A stretch of DNA of 64,000 nt from an uncultured bacterium. GTDB lineage: Bacteria; Verrucomicrobiota; Kiritimatiellia; CAIVKH01. Numbering within the stretch: position 1 is the stretch's first letter; every line of letters begins with the position of its first letter. This document shows positions 24,698-35,028 of the stretch, one piece after another. Under the pieces are notes generated by a model, which was given only the letters and a program-made list of their open reading frames with translations, was not told the origin of the DNA and ran no database searches. The stretch spans positions 31,770 to 95,769 of the forward strand of contig CALGMT010000004.1 of assembly GCA_937958885.1 (NCBI GenBank), in the 5' to 3' direction. A program made the position numbers and the translations under genes.

Positions 24698-25987
24698 ATG
24701 AAGCTGGAAACCATCTGCCTGCACGGCGGCGCGCAACCCGACCCCACCACCCTCTCGCGCGGCGTGCCGGTCTACCGGACCTCGTCCTACGTGTTCAAAA
24801 ACACGGAACACGCAGCTAATCTCTTCGCCCTCAAAGAACTCGGCAACATCTACACGCGCCTGATGAACCCGACGACCGACGTGCTCGAAAAACGCGTCGC
24901 GCTCCTCGAAGGCGCTCCGGAATTCGGCGGGCTCGGCATCGCGTCCGGCACCTCGGCGGTCTTCTACTCGCTGATCAATCTCGCCCAGGCCGGCGACAAC
25001 ATCGTCTCCGCGCGCAACCTCTACGGCGGCACCTACACGCAGTTCAACGATATCCTGCCGACCCTCGGCATCAACGTGAAATTCGTGGACACACAGGACC
25101 CGCAGAATGTCGCGAAGGCCATCGACGACAAGACCCGCGCGGTCTTCGCCGAGAGCGTTTCGAATCCCGCGCTTGAAGTCACCGACCTCGAGGCGATCGC
25201 GAACATCGCGCACGCCGCCGGCATCCCGTTCATTGTCGATTCCACCTTCTCGACGCCGTACCTCACCCAGCCCATCGCGTTTGGCGCCGACATCGTCGTC
25301 CACTCGCTGACCAAATGGTTCGGGGGACACGGGACCGGCATCGGCGGCGTGGTAGTCGACTCCGCGAAATTCAAGTGGTCCGCCGGAAAACACCCGCTGT
25401 TCGACATCCCGGACACCTCATACCACGGCCTGCGCTGGGGCCACGACCTGCCCGAAATGCTCGCGCCTCTCGCGTACATCCTCCGCATGCGCACCGTGCC
25501 GCTGCGGAATCTCGGCGCGTGCATCTCGCCGGACAACGCATGGATGTTCCTGCAGGGCATCGAAACGCTGCCGCTCCGCATGGAGCGCCATTGCCAGAAT
25601 GCCCTCGCCGTCGCGCAGTTCCTCAAGACGCACACGCTCGTGGAATGGGTCCGCTTCCCCGGCCTCCAGGACGACCCGGAGTACGCAAAGAATGTCAAAT
25701 ATCTCAAGGGCAAGGGCGGCGCGATGGTGGTGTTCGGCATCAAGGGCGGCGCAGCCGCCGGCGCGAAGTTCATCAACAGCCTCAAACTGCACTCGCACCT
25801 CGCAAACGTCGGCGACGCAAAGAGCCTGGCGATCCATCCGGCCACAACGACGCATTCGCAGCTCAACGAAGAGCAGCAGCGCGGCGCGGGCATCACGCCG
25901 GAGCTCGTCCGTCTCTCCGTCGGCATCGAACACATTGAGGATATCCTGGCCGACCTCGACCAGGCCCTCGCGGCGTCGCAGCGCTGA
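24698..25987 (+). CDS. metY: O-acetylhomoserine aminocarboxypropyltransferase (sulfhydrylase)
   Basis: 'LETICLHGGAQPDPTTLSRGVPVYRTSSYVFKN', PLP site 'IVVHSLTKWFGGHGTGIGGVVVD'. Confidence 0.94.
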   Translation: MKLETICLHGGAQPDPTTLSRGVPVYRTSSYVFKNTEHAANLFALKELGNIYTRLMNPTTDVLEKRVALLEGAPEFGGLGIASGTSAVFYSLINLAQAGDNIVSARNLYGGTYTQFNDILPTLGINVKFVDTQDPQNVAKAIDDKTRAVFAESVSNPALEVTDLEAIANIAHAAGIPFIVDSTFSTPYLTQPIAFGADIVVHSLTKWFGGHGTGIGGVVVDSAKFKWSAGKHPLFDIPDTSYHGLRWGHDLPEMLAPLAYILRMRTVPLRNLGACISPDNAWMFLQGIETLPLRMERHCQNALAVAQFLKTHTLVEWVRFPGLQDDPEYAKNVKYLKGKGGAMVVFGIKGGAAAGAKFINSLKLHSHLANVGDAKSLAIHPATTTHSQLNEEQQRGAGITPELVRLSVGIEHIEDILADLDQALAASQR

Positions 25988-25990
25988 TTT

Positions 25991-26052
25991 TTCCATGCTC
26001 TGTAAATTACATAGCATGGAAGCCGCAAAAAAAGTTTTTACAGAGCATGGAA
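25991..26052. repeat. Nested inverted repeats: three copies of TTCCATGCT(C/A)TGTAA
   Basis: TTCCATGCTCTGTAAATTACATAGCATGGAA (25991-26021; 15-bp arms with one mismatch) plus TTTACAGAGCATGGAA at 26037-26052, which is the exact reverse complement of the first copy. Confidence 0.8.
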
Positions 26053-26074
26053 CGGTTGAACGGGTAGCGTGGCG

Positions 26075-27247
26075 ATGACGCGTTCAGCGACCTCCGACCT
26101 CGGCGAGGTGAAGACCCGCTTCTTCACGTTCGGCGACCGCCGGCATCCGTTCATCTTCCGAACGGGTGAAACGCTAGCGCCGGTCACCCTCGCCTACGAG
26201 ACGTATGGCGCGCTCAACAACGACAAAAGCAACGCCATTCTCGTGTTCCATGCCCTGAGCGGAAGTCAGCATGCCGCGGGGATCAACCGCGCAGTGAACG
26301 GCGTGCGCCGACTCTGGACGGAGGAGTTGTACCGCGGCTGGTGGGACGATTTTATCGGACCGGGCAAGGCGCTGGATACGGAACGCTATTTCGTCATCTG
26401 CGCGAACTATCTCGGCGGCTGCTACGGATCGTCGGGTCCGGTCTCGCGCAACCCGGCGACGCGGCGGCCGTATGGGCGGTCGTTCCCGACCGTCATGTTC
26501 GGCGACATCGTCGATTCACAGGTGCAGTTGTTGGATCACTTGGGCATCGGCAAGTTGCATGCCGTCGCCGGCGCTTCGCTCGGAGGATTGTGCGCGGTGA
26601 ACCTCGCCGTGCGCCATCCGCAGCGGGTGGGCGTGGTGATCGCGATTGCGGCGGGCATCGAGGTCACGATTCAACAGCGCATCTACAACTACGAGCAGAT
26701 TTGCGCCATCGAGGAGGACAAGTATTTCAACGGCGGCCACTACTACGGGCGCCGGCATCCGGAGCGCGGCCTCGCGCTTGCGCGGATGATCAGCCACAAG
26801 ACGTTCGTCTCGCTCGACATGATGGCGGAACGCGCGCGGAGCGAAGTCGTGCGGCCGGAGGAAGACCGCGACAAGTGGTACTGGATGAGCCACCCCGTCG
26901 AATCGTATTTGCGCAATCAGGGATTGAAGTTCGTGAAGCGATTCGATGCGAACACGTATCTGCGCATCATCGACGCGTGGCAGCGCTTCGATTTATTGAA
27001 AGACACCGGACGAAAATCGTATCGAGATGTCTTCGCGGCATGCCGAAAGCAGCGACACCTCGTGTTCAGCATTCAAGGCGATGCCTGTTTCGCGCCGGAA
27101 CAACAGGAGCAGCAGTGCGAGGTGTTGCGAGCGGCGGGCGTTCCGCATCAGCACATCTCGGTGCATTCCGACAAGGGCCACGATTCATTCCTCCTCGAGC
27201 CTGAGCTCTACACCCCTCACATCGCCTACTTCCTGCGCGGCGCATAG
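26075..27247 (+). CDS. metX: Homoserine O-acetyltransferase
   Basis: 'VTLAYETYGALNNDKSNAILVFHALSGSQHAAG', 'VAGASLGGLCAVNLAVRHP', 'SDKGHDSFLLEPE'. GTG at 26069 also possible. Confidence 0.93.
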   Translation: MTRSATSDLGEVKTRFFTFGDRRHPFIFRTGETLAPVTLAYETYGALNNDKSNAILVFHALSGSQHAAGINRAVNGVRRLWTEELYRGWWDDFIGPGKALDTERYFVICANYLGGCYGSSGPVSRNPATRRPYGRSFPTVMFGDIVDSQVQLLDHLGIGKLHAVAGASLGGLCAVNLAVRHPQRVGVVIAIAAGIEVTIQQRIYNYEQICAIEEDKYFNGGHYYGRRHPERGLALARMISHKTFVSLDMMAERARSEVVRPEEDRDKWYWMSHPVESYLRNQGLKFVKRFDANTYLRIIDAWQRFDLLKDTGRKSYRDVFAACRKQRHLVFSIQGDACFAPEQQEQQCEVLRAAGVPHQHISVHSDKGHDSFLLEPELYTPHIAYFLRGA

Positions 27248-27821: not shown

Positions 27822-29102
27822 ATGAACTACGCTGCGTCCAGCAACCTGAACATGGCCGTGATCGGCGGCGGTGTCGCGGGACTCACCTCTGCATTGCTGC
27901 TTCAAGAGAAGCATCGCGTGACGCTCTACGAGAAGAACGACTATGTCGGCGGGCATACAAATACCATCACCATCGCCGACGGACCGGATGCCGGGACGCC
28001 GGTGGACACCGGCTTTATCGTGCTCAACAACAAAACCTATCCGCTTTTCAATCGCTTGTTGCGAAAGTTGGATTGTCCGACACGCGACAGCGACATGTCA
28101 TTTGGGTACTACGACGAGACCACGCGCCTTCAATATGCCGGTACGGGTTGGATGGGCTTGTTCGCGCAGCCGGGGAATGCGCTGAAGCCGGCCTATTGGC
28201 GTTTTTTGCTGGAAATTGCCCGATTTTGCAAAACCGCCCGCGCCGATTTGGCGGCGGGGCGTCTCGAGAGCTTAACCGTCGGCCAGTATCTCGACGGACA
28301 TGGCTACTCCGGCTTCGCGCGCGAAGCGTACATCCTTCCCATGGCCGGCGCCATCTGGTCCTCTTCGCTAAAAGACATTGAAGGTTTTCCCGCGGAAATG
28401 ATGATCCGCTTTTGGGAAAATCACGGTCTGCTCTCGCTGGAAGACCGTCCTCAGTGGCAGACCGTGGTCGGCGGCAGCCGCCGATACGTGCAGAGCGCTA
28501 TCGCCCGGATCGGCGGGCCCGTGCATGTCCGTGCCGACGTGAAAAAGATTGAACGGACCGACGCCGGGGTGCGGGTGTATGTCGATGGACACTCCCCCGA
28601 GTTGTTTGACGCGGTGGTGGTGGCCGCGCACGCCGACGAAGCGTTGCGGATGTTGAGCGATCCCACCGCCGACGAAAAGCGGCTGCTCGGCGCCTGGCGC
28701 TATTTGCCAAATCTCACGCACCTGCACACGGACGTCTCGCTGATGCCGCCGAACCGCCGCGCGTGGGCCTCATGGAACTATCGCCGTTCGCCTGCTGTGG
28801 CCGATTCGAGCCCGGTCTCGGTCACCTATCACATGAATCGACTGCAAGGGCTGCGGACACAGCAGCAATACTTTGTGTCGCTGAATGCGCCCCGTCTTCC
28901 TCGTGATGAGTGCATGATTCGCGAAATTCGCTACACACACCCGCTCTATACGTTCGATTCAATGGCAACGCAGAAAGAGCTGCCGAACTTAAACGGAGTG
29001 AATCGAACATTTTACTGTGGCAGCTACTTCGGCTACGGCTTTCACGAGGATGCGGTGCGGTCGGGCGTAGCCGTGGCCCGCGCGTTTGGGATCGACCTGT
29101 GA
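27822..29102 (+). CDS. FAD-dependent amine oxidase-like protein (NAD(P)-binding)
   Basis: 'MAVIGGGVAGLTSALLLQEKHRVTLYEKNDYVGGHTNTI' dinucleotide-binding motif; 'FYCGSYFGYGFHEDAVRSGVAVARA'. Confidence 0.9.
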   Translation: MNYAASSNLNMAVIGGGVAGLTSALLLQEKHRVTLYEKNDYVGGHTNTITIADGPDAGTPVDTGFIVLNNKTYPLFNRLLRKLDCPTRDSDMSFGYYDETTRLQYAGTGWMGLFAQPGNALKPAYWRFLLEIARFCKTARADLAAGRLESLTVGQYLDGHGYSGFAREAYILPMAGAIWSSSLKDIEGFPAEMMIRFWENHGLLSLEDRPQWQTVVGGSRRYVQSAIARIGGPVHVRADVKKIERTDAGVRVYVDGHSPELFDAVVVAAHADEALRMLSDPTADEKRLLGAWRYLPNLTHLHTDVSLMPPNRRAWASWNYRRSPAVADSSPVSVTYHMNRLQGLRTQQQYFVSLNAPRLPRDECMIREIRYTHPLYTFDSMATQKELPNLNGVNRTFYCGSYFGYGFHEDAVRSGVAVARAFGIDL

Positions 29103-31084
29103 ACTCGCGCCTCTACAGAGGCCGCGTGATGCATGCGCGGTTGGAGCCGACCCGCCACGCGTTTTCCTACCCCGTTTATTTCCTCGGATTGGACATCGAC
29201 GAACTTCCGATCCTGGCCGAAACGGTGCGCGGATTTGCCTACAACCGACGCGGTCTTTTTTCGCTGTACGACCGCGACTATCTCGAAGACGTTGCGGGTA
29301 CGATCCGCGACAAGCTGGATCGTGTTCTAAAGCACATGCAACACGGCGGCGATGTTGCTCGGATTTTCCTGCTGACCTCGGCGCGATACTTCGGCTACGT
29401 CTTCAATCCCGTTAGTTTCTATTATTGCTACGACGCGCACGGCCGGCTGCGCTGCGCGCTCGCCGAGGTGAACAATACATTCCGCGAGCGCCATCTTTAC
29501 ACGCTGGAGGATCCGCGCTTCGAGGGCGAGACGGCCTTTTTCAAGGCGGCAAAAGCATTCCACGTTTCCCCATTCAACGACCGCAATGGGACGTATGCCT
29601 TTTCTTTTTCTCCGCCGGACCCGAACGTGGACGTTCGCGTGGATATAGTGCGGGACGGCCGCGTGGTTTTTAAATCGCAATTATCTGGTAAGGCGATGCC
29701 GCTGGACGCGAAACATCTGGTATCGACGCTGGTCGGATATCCCCTGACCGGTTTCATGACAATGCCCCGAATTATGTCGCAGGCGGCTCAATTATATTTT
29801 CGTCGACGGTTGCCGGTCTTCACCAAGCCCGCGCCCTCGAGCCCTTTCACGATCCGCACCGCACCGGCAACGTCATGGGAGCGCGTATGCGAGCGCCTTA
29901 TCTTGGCTCTGTTCGATCGGCTGGAGGTCGGCGAATTGCGGGTGCGCCTTCCGGGCGGAGTCGAGCGCACGTTCGGCGGAACATCGCCCGCCGTATCGGC
30001 GTCGATGCAAATTCGCAGCCATTCCTTCTTCTCGCGCGCAGTGCGCGACGGCGAAATTGGACTGGGCGAAGCCTACATGCTGGGCGAGTGGGATTCCCCG
30101 GACATCACGGCCTTGATCAGCCTGCTGATTGCAAATCGCCACAAATTGGAGAACGGCGATCTCCGCATGGCGCGCGTTGGACGATTGATCAATCGCGCGC
30201 GCTATCTGCTACAGCCCAACACGCTTTCGGGAAGCCGCAAAAACATCGCGGCCCACTATGATTTGAGCAACGACTTTTTCAAACTGTGGCTGGATCCGAC
30301 CATGATGTATTCGGCTGCAGTATTCGCGTCGCAGGGGGAATCGCTCGAAGTCGCCCAGCGCAATAAGATGCGAAAGTTGATCGCAGCCGCGCGCATCGGT
30401 CGTGAGCACCACGTGCTGGAAATCGGATCGGGCTGGGGCGGGTTTGCGATTGAGGCCGTACGGCTGACCGGGTGCCGCGTCACGTCCGTGACCATATCTC
30501 AACGGCAACTGGAGGAGGCGCAAGCGCGCGCGGCGGCGGCCGGCTTGGCGGATCGTATTGAGTTCAAGCTGTGCGACTATCGGCAACTCGACGGCGTGTA
30601 TGACCGCATTGTCTCCATCGAAATGCTGGAGGCGGTGGGCCGCAAGTATTTGGGAACTTTTTTTGCCACCCTGGATCGCGTCCTTCGTCCCGACGGCGTC
30701 GCCGCAATTCAGGTGATTACCATTCCCGATCAGCGGTACGATGGATATTCCCGCAGCACCGATTGGATTCAGAAGCACATTTTCCCCGGCGGCCACCTGC
30801 CCTCGCTTGGCGCGTTGGTATTGGCGATGACGCAGCATTCATCGCTGCATGTGGAGTCGGTCGAGAACATCGGCCCCCACTATGCCCCCACCCTCCGTCG
30901 CTGGCTGGAGAATTTCGAGGCCGCCCTTCCGCGCGTGCGAGAGCTCGGTTACGATGAAATGTTCATCCGCAAGTGGCGCTATTACCTGAGCTACTGCGAA
31001 GCCGCCTTTGCGACGCGCGCGCTCGACAACCTTCACCTGGTGCTGACCCGAGCCTGCAACCCTGCATTGCGAATGGCCTATTGA
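29099..31084 (+). CDS. DUF1365 - cyclopropane-fatty-acyl-phospholipid synthase fusion protein
   Basis: GTG start (GTGA overlap with upstream stop). N-terminus 'NSRLYRGRVMHARLEPTRHAFSYPVYFLGLDIDELP' is DUF1365-like; C-terminal half has 'AHYDLSNDFFKLWLDPTMMYSAAVF' and SAM motif 'VLEIGSGWGGFAIEAV' of CFA synthases; no stop between. Confidence 0.9.
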   Translation: MNSRLYRGRVMHARLEPTRHAFSYPVYFLGLDIDELPILAETVRGFAYNRRGLFSLYDRDYLEDVAGTIRDKLDRVLKHMQHGGDVARIFLLTSARYFGYVFNPVSFYYCYDAHGRLRCALAEVNNTFRERHLYTLEDPRFEGETAFFKAAKAFHVSPFNDRNGTYAFSFSPPDPNVDVRVDIVRDGRVVFKSQLSGKAMPLDAKHLVSTLVGYPLTGFMTMPRIMSQAAQLYFRRRLPVFTKPAPSSPFTIRTAPATSWERVCERLILALFDRLEVGELRVRLPGGVERTFGGTSPAVSASMQIRSHSFFSRAVRDGEIGLGEAYMLGEWDSPDITALISLLIANRHKLENGDLRMARVGRLINRARYLLQPNTLSGSRKNIAAHYDLSNDFFKLWLDPTMMYSAAVFASQGESLEVAQRNKMRKLIAAARIGREHHVLEIGSGWGGFAIEAVRLTGCRVTSVTISQRQLEEAQARAAAAGLADRIEFKLCDYRQLDGVYDRIVSIEMLEAVGRKYLGTFFATLDRVLRPDGVAAIQVITIPDQRYDGYSRSTDWIQKHIFPGGHLPSLGALVLAMTQHSSLHVESVENIGPHYAPTLRRWLENFEAALPRVRELGYDEMFIRKWRYYLSYCEAAFATRALDNLHLVLTRACNPALRMAY

Positions 31085-32404: not shown

Positions 32405-33130
32405 ATGAATGCACTTATTTTCGGAGCAACAGGCGGCATCGGCGCGGCTCTCGCCCGAAGATTGCGCAACGCGGGTCATCACGTTTGGGGCAGCGCGCGC
32501 CATGCAGACCGACTGGCGCAACTCTCGACAGAACTCGAAATGGGCGCGACCCCCGGCGACGTGACGGCGCCTGAAGAGGTGGATCGCATCGTGGACACTG
32601 CGGCCCGTTCCATGGGCGGTCTGGATGCAGTGGCGCTATGCGTCGGAAGTATCTTGCTCAAACCGGCTCATCTGACGACAAACGACGAATGGGCCTTCAC
32701 ACTAAACGTGAATCTGAATGCCGCTTTTTACGTGACGCGGGCTTGCGCGCGCGCGATGCAGTCCGCCGGCGGTTCGGTCGTTCTGGTTTCCACCTGTGCC
32801 GCGCGTATCGGGCTCCCCAATCACGAAGCGATCGCGGCAGCGAAAGCGGGTGTTGAGGGCTTGGCGCGTGCGGCGGCGGCGACGTACTCGTCTCGCGGGA
32901 TTCGATTCAATGTTGTTGCACCAGGCCTCGTGGACACACCGCTTTCGGCGCGCATTACAGCCAATGAGGCCTCGCGAAAAGCCTCCCAAGCCATGCACCC
33001 GCTCGGTCGTATCGGCACGCCGGACGATGTGGCATCGGCGATTGCATGGCTGATGGATCCGGAGCAAAGCTGGGTCACCGGACAAGTGCTGGGCGTTGAC
33101 GGCGGTTTAGCCTCGCTGAAAGGCCGGTAA
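32405..33130 (+). CDS. Short-chain dehydrogenase/reductase
   Basis: 'ALIFGATGGIGAALARRL' Rossmann motif; 'PDDVASAIAWLMDPEQSWVTGQVLGVDGG'. Confidence 0.93.
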   Translation: MNALIFGATGGIGAALARRLRNAGHHVWGSARHADRLAQLSTELEMGATPGDVTAPEEVDRIVDTAARSMGGLDAVALCVGSILLKPAHLTTNDEWAFTLNVNLNAAFYVTRACARAMQSAGGSVVLVSTCAARIGLPNHEAIAAAKAGVEGLARAAAATYSSRGIRFNVVAPGLVDTPLSARITANEASRKASQAMHPLGRIGTPDDVASAIAWLMDPEQSWVTGQVLGVDGGLASLKGR

Positions 33131-33133
33131 GTC

Positions 33134-33607
33134 ATGCGCACATTCATCGCTCGCCATACGGTCCCCTACCCGGTCGAAGTCGTTTTTGCATGGCACGAGC
33201 ATCCGGGTGCTCTAGACGCCTTGCTCCCGGCATTTCCGCGCATACGGGTGGTGCGGCATGAGGGCATACGGAATGGCGCCGCGGCCGTGATGGAAATTCG
33301 ATTGGGGCCCTTTCGACTCGAATGGGAGGCCATCCATGATGGATTCGTTCGCAATAAGCAATTTCGCGATATCCAAGTCCGAGGGCCTTTTCGTGTTTGG
33401 GAACACACGCATCGTTTTGAGGCTGTTGGCGAATACAGCTGCCGTTTGACCGATCGGGTGGTCTTTTCGTTGCCCGGAGGCCGAATCATCAATGCCCTGC
33501 TTTCGCCGGTGGTCGCGATGTTGCTGCACGGCATGTTCAATGAACGATATCGCGCGCTTGATCGCGCGCTAGAAGAATCCTATGCGATGAAGCCGTGCGA
33601 CATATGA
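33134..33607 (+). CDS. SRPBCC (START-like) family protein
   Basis: 'VPYPVEVVFAWHEHPGALDALLPAF...' SRPBCC-like; ATGA overlap with photolyase. Confidence 0.75.
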   Translation: MRTFIARHTVPYPVEVVFAWHEHPGALDALLPAFPRIRVVRHEGIRNGAAAVMEIRLGPFRLEWEAIHDGFVRNKQFRDIQVRGPFRVWEHTHRFEAVGEYSCRLTDRVVFSLPGGRIINALLSPVVAMLLHGMFNERYRALDRALEESYAMKPCDI

Positions 33608-35028
33608 GCAGCGAAACGACCATTCTCTGGTTCAGACGCGATCTGCGGCTTGCTGACCATGACGCCTTGAACGCGGCGCGCGTCCGCGGAAGTTGCGTCA
33701 TCCCTGTGTTTATTTGGGCGCCGGAGGAGGAAGCGCCCTGGCAGCCAGGCGCGGCATCCCGGTGGTGGCTGCACCAGAGCCTACACGCGCTACGGGTTTC
33801 CCTGCGAGAGTTGGGAAGCGACTTGATCATTCGGCGCGGTCCGTCGCTAGACGCCATCCGGCAGTTGATAGCAGAGACGGGCGCGACGGCAGTTTATTGG
33901 AGCAGACTTTACGAACCCGCAGTTATTGAACGGGACCGCGTGATCAAAACCGCGCTTCGCGAGGCGGGTATCGAAGCAAAGTCCTTCAATGCGGCCCTGC
34001 TCCACGAGCCATGGACAGTCCAGACGACGCAGGGCAAGCCGTACCAGGTCTTCACGCCTTTCTATCGCGCGTGTCAGGCGCTGGGCGACCCCTCAACGCC
34101 GCTGAAGAAACCGACAGCTTTACCGCCGATTCCTGCCCTCGCATCACTGGAGATCGATGCGCTCGAATTGCTTCCATCAATCCGCTGGTACACGGGAATA
34201 GCAGCGGCTTGGCAGCCGGGCGAAGAGGGTGGGCTGAAGCGGCTCGGCGGGTTTGCCCCGATCGCGCCCCGCTACAAATCTGAGCGCGATCGCCCGGACT
34301 TGGAGAGCACCTCGCGACTCTCGCCGCATCTTCATTTTGGCGAGATCAGTCCGCGCCAAGTGTGGTGGGCGATTCGCAAGGCGCATCCGGGCGGAGCTGC
34401 TGAGCCGTATCTCCGACAACTCATTTGGCGGGAGTTTGCGCACCATTTGCTTTACCACTTCCCCCACACGACGTCCGAACCGTTGCGCCCGGAATTCAAG
34501 CGCTTCCCATGGTCTGAAGATGCGCGCCTGCTCCGCGCTTGGCAGAAGGGCCGAACCGGATATCCGATCGTTGATGCCGGCATGCGCGAGCTATGGCATA
34601 CCGGGTGGATGCACAACCGCGTTCGCATGATTGTCGCGTCGTTTCTCGTCAAGGATCTCCTCGTTCCGTGGCAGGCCGGGGCTCGCTGGTTCTGGGATAC
34701 CCTGGTGGACGCCGATCTTGCCAACAATTCGTTGGGCTGGCAGTGGACGGCCGGTTGCGGCGCCGACGCCGCTCCGTATTTTCGGATATTCAATCCCGCT
34801 TTGCAGGGTGAAAAGTTCGATCCGGACGGCGCATATGTACGGCGTTGGGTTCCCGAACTCGCTCGCATCGACACGCGCGGACTGCACCGCGTCTTCGAGC
34901 GGGATCGGCAGGAGTTAGCCGCCGCGGGCGTTGAAGTGGGTCGAGACTATCCCGCAGCGCTGGTCGATCACTCTGCCGCGCGCGATGCGGCGCTGGCGGC
35001 ATACGATCGGATCAAACGCTTCGAGTAA
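33604..35028 (+). CDS. phr: Deoxyribodipyrimidine photolyase
   Basis: 'ILWFRRDLRLADHDAL', 'GYPIVDAGMRELWHTGWMHNRVRMIVASFLVKDLLVPWQAG', 'DADLANNSLGWQWTAGCGADAAPYFRIFNP'. Confidence 0.96.
   Translation: MSSETTILWFRRDLRLADHDALNAARVRGSCVIPVFIWAPEEEAPWQPGAASRWWLHQSLHALRVSLRELGSDLIIRRGPSLDAIRQLIAETGATAVYWSRLYEPAVIERDRVIKTALREAGIEAKSFNAALLHEPWTVQTTQGKPYQVFTPFYRACQALGDPSTPLKKPTALPPIPALASLEIDALELLPSIRWYTGIAAAWQPGEEGGLKRLGGFAPIAPRYKSERDRPDLESTSRLSPHLHFGEISPRQVWWAIRKAHPGGAAEPYLRQLIWREFAHHLLYHFPHTTSEPLRPEFKRFPWSEDARLLRAWQKGRTGYPIVDAGMRELWHTGWMHNRVRMIVASFLVKDLLVPWQAGARWFWDTLVDADLANNSLGWQWTAGCGADAAPYFRIFNPALQGEKFDPDGAYVRRWVPELARIDTRGLHRVFERDRQELAAAGVEVGRDYPAALVDHSAARDAALAAYDRIKRFE

Follow-up and report, generated by a model that had tools for sequence, protein, structure and literature searches.

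A DUF1365-methyltransferase fusion gene from a Kiritimatiellia-like bacterium, a probable bifunctional enzyme of furan fatty acid synthesis

The window that we analyzed is a stretch of 64,000 nucleotides from an uncultured bacterium of the Verrucomicrobiota (contig CALGMT010000004.1 of assembly GCA_937958885.1). It contains a UfaD-like gene followed directly by a gene that joins a DUF1365 domain to a methyltransferase in one polypeptide (Table 1). The reading frame of the fusion gene is open from the GTG at 29099 to the stop codon at 31082–31084, and its product matches two Pfam families. DUF1365 (PF07103) aligns over its full profile (positions 1–235 of 235) with an E value of 2.6e-76 and 256.8 bits against a cut-off of 25, and CMAS (PF02353) aligns over profile positions 7–270 of 273 with an E value of 1.4e-78. 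An earlier, sequence-only reading of this DNA had described a stop-free ORF running from a DUF1365-like N terminus into a CFA-synthase-like methyltransferase and had proposed a domain search for these same two families; the 661-residue frame and both matches bear it out. Within the DUF1365 domain, 11 positions are invariant across 62 relatives: His12, Arg14, Phe102, Pro104, Asn126, Thr127, Ser157, Pro158, Pro215, Ile225 and Ala229.

Table 1. Genes, domains and active-site positions at the fusion locus (window coordinates)
Feature	Position	Strand	Remarks
UfaD-like FAD (amine-oxidase family) oxidoreductase	27822–29102	+	426 aa
DUF1365-methyltransferase fusion gene, ufaO-ufaM type	29099–31084	+	661 aa, GTG start
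DUF1365 (UfaO-like) domain	29111–29836	+	aa 5–246; Pfam, predicted fold
Short junction	29837–29875	+	aa 247–259; KPxPxSPxTI strand end and about 5 residues
CFA-synthase-like SAM methyltransferase (UfaM-like)	29873–31081	+	aa 259–661; CMAS profile aa 380–644
Signature residues E508, E511, A512	30620–30634	+	E. coli Cfa G236, E239, H240
Signature residue Q538	30710–30712	+	E. coli Cfa H266 position
SDR	32405–33130	+	
SRPBCC/polyketide cyclase-like	33134–33607	+	
Photolyase/cryptochrome	33595–35028	+	

The alignment of whole CFA synthases from the PDB to the fusion protein starts at about residues 287–298, and the stretch between the two Pfam matches belongs to the CFA-type fold as its N-terminal part, which in the predicted model opens with a helix spanning residues 259–272. 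These match starts, together with the helix, place the junction at about residues 254–259, near nucleotides 29858–29875, a range that includes the position near 29870 given by the earlier reading. In split relatives of the f7 lineage, the first gene ends just past the same conserved TI motif. The AlphaFold2 model, which was built from an input of 53 fused relatives, is one compact two-domain protein with a mean pLDDT of 92.6 and a pTM of 0.87, and about five residues separate the last DUF1365 strand (251–253) from the first methyltransferase helix. The fold of the C-terminal part matches those of CFA synthases. The DUF1365 part is predicted with a pLDDT of 94.0; its fold gave no PDB match with an E value below 0.001, and the closest resemblances, to barrels of the fatty-acid-binding and nitrobindin type, are weak (best E value 4e-3).

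The C-terminal half has the fold and family of the CFA synthase that the earlier reading took it for, but it is not a standard one. On the two cfa equivalog models, the fusion protein scores 254.1 bits (NF008686, cut-off 400) and 290 bits (NF053839, cut-off 600), whereas a control, the stand-alone CFA synthase of the same phylum at locus L116, reaches 544 bits on NF008686. The signature E/E/A/Q, formed here by Glu508, Glu511, Ala512 and Gln538, is common to all 106 of the 106 DUF1365-linked methyltransferases; at the corresponding positions 236, 239, 240 and 266 of E. coli Cfa, four stand-alone CFA synthases and the solved E. coli, Lactobacillus and Aquifex enzymes have G/E/H/H. Compared with E. 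coli Cfa (PDB 6bqc), the fusion protein shares the fold and retains the equivalents of Glu239 and Tyr317, but Gly236 is replaced by glutamate, and neither His240 nor His266 is kept, their places being taken by alanine and glutamine. The DUF1365-linked methyltransferases also group apart from the CFA synthases, with an outgroup split of 100% in a quick tree with four outgroup rows. Given the low equivalog scores and the different active-site residues, we reject the identification as a true CFA synthase. We take His266, Glu239 and Tyr317 to be the bicarbonate-binding residues of E. coli Cfa, and the proton-removal step may differ in an enzyme that has lost His266 and acquired a glutamate. Plant cyclopropane synthases carry the E/E/A/Q signature as well and nevertheless form cyclopropanes; a cyclopropane product is therefore compatible with the signature taken by itself. 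The position of cysteine 139 in E. coli Cfa was rejected as a discriminator because the DUF1365-linked proteins vary there among C, S, A and G.

We scanned 84,980 species genomes, surveyed the window's phylum and checked every frame, which yielded 55 distinct single-ORF fusions, including this gene and a few that are incomplete at contig ends. The survey of fusion frequency suggested by the earlier reading thus finds an architecture that is not rare, with carriers in about a dozen phyla: Verrucomicrobiota/Kiritimatiellota, Lentisphaerota, Omnitrophota, Thermodesulfobacteriota, Spirochaetota, Sumerlaeota, Acidobacteriota, Bdellovibrionota, Myxococcota, Poribacteria, Margulisiibacteriota, FCPU426 and Bacillota (Paenibacillus psychroresistens), as well as one genome labeled Pseudomonadota. 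Within the window's phylum, 15 of 388 genomes have a full-length fusion, one more has a fusion that meets a contig end, and roughly 50 have both genes separate, as tallied from the survey listing with doubtful long frames rechecked. The phylum of Desulfosarcina has the fusion in 6 of 247 genomes and probably in a seventh. Seven Verrucomicrobiota genomes with long open frames were considered as carriers outside the class, and all proved to have two genes. On annotated proteobacterial and actinobacterial plasmids the DUF1365 and methyltransferase genes are separate and adjacent, as they are in Mesorhizobium terrae, where the DUF1365 gene was located by similarity; this is the arrangement that the earlier reading had expected of proteobacteria.

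The tree of the methyltransferase half and the tree of the DUF1365 half each require only three changes between fused and split states, compared with averages of about 34–37 when the labels are shuffled and no shuffle as low as three; because both come from quick searches and contain several long branches, the count of changes is approximate. In both trees, seven split loci from one Kiritimatiellia-like lineage (L013, L014, L020 and L025–L028) branch from within the fused clade. This history fits a single old fusion that would have been passed on both vertically and by transfer, and at least one subsequent split. The split relatives inside the fused clade indicate that the covalent link is not essential, and tethering of the two domains may help. 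A table published in 2008 (BMC Bioinformatics, PMC2613160) lists a "DUF1365-OMT" architecture for Desulfococcus oleovorans Hxd3, which likewise places DUF1365 and a methyltransferase in one protein and is probably the same fusion, so the architecture itself is not new. That entry differs from the present account in that it is a table row labeled OMT with no function given, and the papers mentioning DUF1365 that we consulted gave no functional account of the fusion.

The end of the UfaD-like gene and the start of the fusion gene share four base pairs, GTGA, so that the gene order at the locus is ufaD-[ufaO-ufaM]. A UfaD-like gene lies directly upstream at all but two of the 55 loci, and at both exceptions the fused gene begins at a contig edge. 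In the described furan pathway, UfaM carries out methylation, UfaD acts as an FAD desaturase and UfaO inserts oxygen (PMC7380195). DUF1365, which the earlier reading had left without a function, is the UfaO family, whose characterized member is necessary and sufficient for furan ring closure and uses O2 to convert the methylated diene 11Me-10t,12t-18:2 to a furan fatty acid (PMC7380195). The FAD/amine-oxidase family protein encoded next to ufaO places the upstream neighbor in the UfaD group, and the CMAS-family methyltransferase beside ufaD and ufaO is likewise placed in the UfaM group.

The same three families make up the UfaD-UfaO-UfaM sets of Rhodobacter sphaeroides and Rhodopseudomonas palustris (PMC7380195), with orthology judged by families, gene order and published descriptions. 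The order ufaD-ufaO-ufaM of R. palustris (RPA2571, RPA2570 and RPA2569; Lemke et al. 2020, PMC7380195) equals the order here, and the three genes are also consecutive in Halomonas YLGW01, whose ufaM gave the methyl-branched intermediate in E. coli (PMC12089945). In both R. sphaeroides and R. palustris, however, UfaO and UfaM are separate proteins rather than one polypeptide, and the ufaM gene of R. sphaeroides lies far from the operon. The Arabidopsis protein At3g23510 (AtUFAMD1) is likewise a two-enzyme fusion drawn from the same set of three, but it joins UfaD to UfaM and leaves UfaO (At1g30130) separate, whereas the bacterial fusion joins UfaO to UfaM (PMC10940516).

Taken together, we consider the fusion to be probably a bifunctional UfaO-UfaM enzyme that makes furan fatty acids with UfaD. 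Its observed basis is formed by the domains, the gene order, the signature, the conservation and the genome content, from which we infer the reactions and the complex. The UfaM-like C-terminal domain would use SAM to methylate a phospholipid-bound cis-monounsaturated acyl chain, giving a methyl-branched trans-monoene. The UfaD-like flavoprotein, separate but translationally coupled, would then convert this monoene to a conjugated diene, and the UfaO-like N-terminal domain would insert an oxygen from O2 and close the furan ring. A FufM-like methyltransferase encoded elsewhere in the genome could supply the second ring methyl. The fusion would hold the enzymes of the opening and closing steps side by side at the membrane, probably in a UfaD-UfaO-UfaM complex, and the most likely product is a lipid with an antioxidant role, not a common cyclopropane lipid. 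That alternative pairs have been fused, UfaO-UfaM here and UfaD-UfaM in Arabidopsis, suggests that the three enzymes work as one complex. The earlier reading had argued from the fusion that the two halves act physically together on the same lipid; the fusion still argues for joint work on one acyl chain, but not on the same molecule, because in the published pathway one domain would open the series of reactions and the other would end it, with the UfaD step separating them.

On this furan reading, the fusion and the UfaD-like gene would form a self-contained two-gene module for furan lipids that could be tested on a single plasmid. The fusion suggests that the steps opening and ending the pathway are physically coupled; considered alongside the UfaD-UfaM protein of plants, it points towards a complex of all three enzymes. 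The fusion also predicts antioxidant furan lipids in new phyla, including Kiritimatiellia-like Verrucomicrobiota and sulfate reducers, for which, to our knowledge, no furan lipids have been reported so far. Among the proteins that bear the name cyclopropane fatty acid synthase, many may be of the UfaM type, and a few active-site residues can separate them.

A cyclopropane or simple methyl-branched product, with a DUF1365 half that lacks oxygenase activity here and serves to position either the lipid or the methyltransferase, is the alternative that survives best, although we regard it as unlikely. The C-terminal half does retain the CFA fold and the Glu239 and Tyr317 equivalents, the plant enzymes with the same signature do make cyclopropanes, the likeness of the predicted DUF1365 fold to fatty-acid-binding or nitrobindin-like barrels is weak and some carriers have no terminal oxidases. 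This alternative would leave unexplained the presence of UfaD at nearly every fusion locus, since we know of no role for UfaD in bacterial cyclopropane synthesis. Related genomes have separate standard CFA genes, and the UfaO activity of the DUF1365 family is published (PMC7380195), both of which count further against it.

We give a small chance to a composite reading, in which UfaO, UfaD and UfaM would form a channeled complex with alternative pairs fused in bacteria (UfaO-UfaM) and plants (UfaD-UfaM), Glu508 would replace bicarbonate as the proton remover and so steer the reaction from cyclopropane to methyl-alkene, and the DUF1365 half of anaerobic carriers would carry out a chemistry different from O2-dependent furan closure.

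A slimmer one falls to the idea that in anaerobic carriers, possibly here as well, the end product is methyl-branched or the chemistry is independent of O2, with furan formed only upon oxygen exposure as a stress response. Its appeal lies in fusions from organisms that are anaerobes by name (Desulfobacter, Desulfosarcina, Desulfospira and Syntrophus), in the lack of FufM-like genes from the tested genomes of Desulfobacteraceae, and in the requirement of the described UfaD and UfaO for O2, without which R. sphaeroides makes no diene (PMC7380195). The window genome, however, encodes terminal oxidases (haem-copper oxidases, COX1), which indicates that the cell meets and uses O2, and COX1 or cytochrome bd is present in 10 of the 13 carrier genomes checked. 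Neither was detected in the other three (the L065 genome, G389, as well as G520 and G547), Desulfobacter latus being among them; the explanation may be gaps in the draft sequences, enzymes that work while the cells are exposed to oxygen, or a different chemistry in these carriers. The 10-methyl acids of Desulfobacteraceae also count against this idea, because they are made by a different operon, tmpBA (PMC7791843), and for the same reason we dropped a link to the 10-methylpalmitate of Desulfobacter. Finally, an artefact of sequencing or assembly that merged two adjacent genes can be dismissed: the source is a draft genome of 87 contigs, but a same-family relative in an independent genome (locus L003, 68% identity) has the same single ORF, as do more than 50 others, among them the complete chromosomes of Desulfosarcina widdelii and P. 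psychroresistens, which makes a hidden frameshift or stop very unlikely, and the fusion is natural and real, as the sequence-only reading had held.

The wider surroundings also recall known ufa loci. An SDR-SRPBCC-photolyase group lies 1.3 kb downstream of the fusion, past one opposite-strand gene; the Salinivibrio ufa cluster is flanked by SDR, small NTF2-like and photolyase genes and that of Cupriavidus by SDR and NTF2-like genes, an analogy that points to a functional association of the group with the ufa genes in this genome. The best NCBIfam match of the photolyase/cryptochrome gene is a cryptochrome photoreceptor model, at 439 bits and below the cut-off of 604. In M. terrae the same gene set adjoins a ChrR anti-sigma factor, a photolyase and MsrA, in agreement with the ChrR-controlled ufa genes of R. 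sphaeroides. The present genome (about 88% complete) differs from R. sphaeroides in that it gave no match to the ChrR model TIGR02451, and a scan for the consensus promoter found sites no more numerous than in shuffles. Just upstream of the ufa genes, at 24698–27247, lies a methionine pair, an O-acetylhomoserine sulfhydrylase followed by a MetX homoserine acetyltransferase; that it supplies SAM to the ufa genes is a speculative link.

The FufM-like methyltransferase is encoded on the same contig, about 31 kb upstream of the fusion and outside the window. It scores 255 bits with coclaurine N-methyltransferases and 121 bits with CFA, as expected because the Arabidopsis relative of FufM is At4g33110, which is presumably coclaurine-NMT-like. 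FufM itself adds the second furan methyl. The presence of such a methyltransferase in the genome leads us to class it with FufM, whose activity is predicted here. Many ufa loci, fused as well as split, have a relative of this methyltransferase gene, at about 50–60% identity, no more than 8 kb away. The gene itself (G000:C4, about 28.2–29.3 kb; L002:1357–2391, minus strand) is preceded by a DUF1295 gene, and the two converge on genes whose products look like enzymes of the riboflavin pathway. In a Sumerlaeaceae genome (L041:16583–17959), one ORF appears to fuse DUF1295 to the FufM-like methyltransferase.
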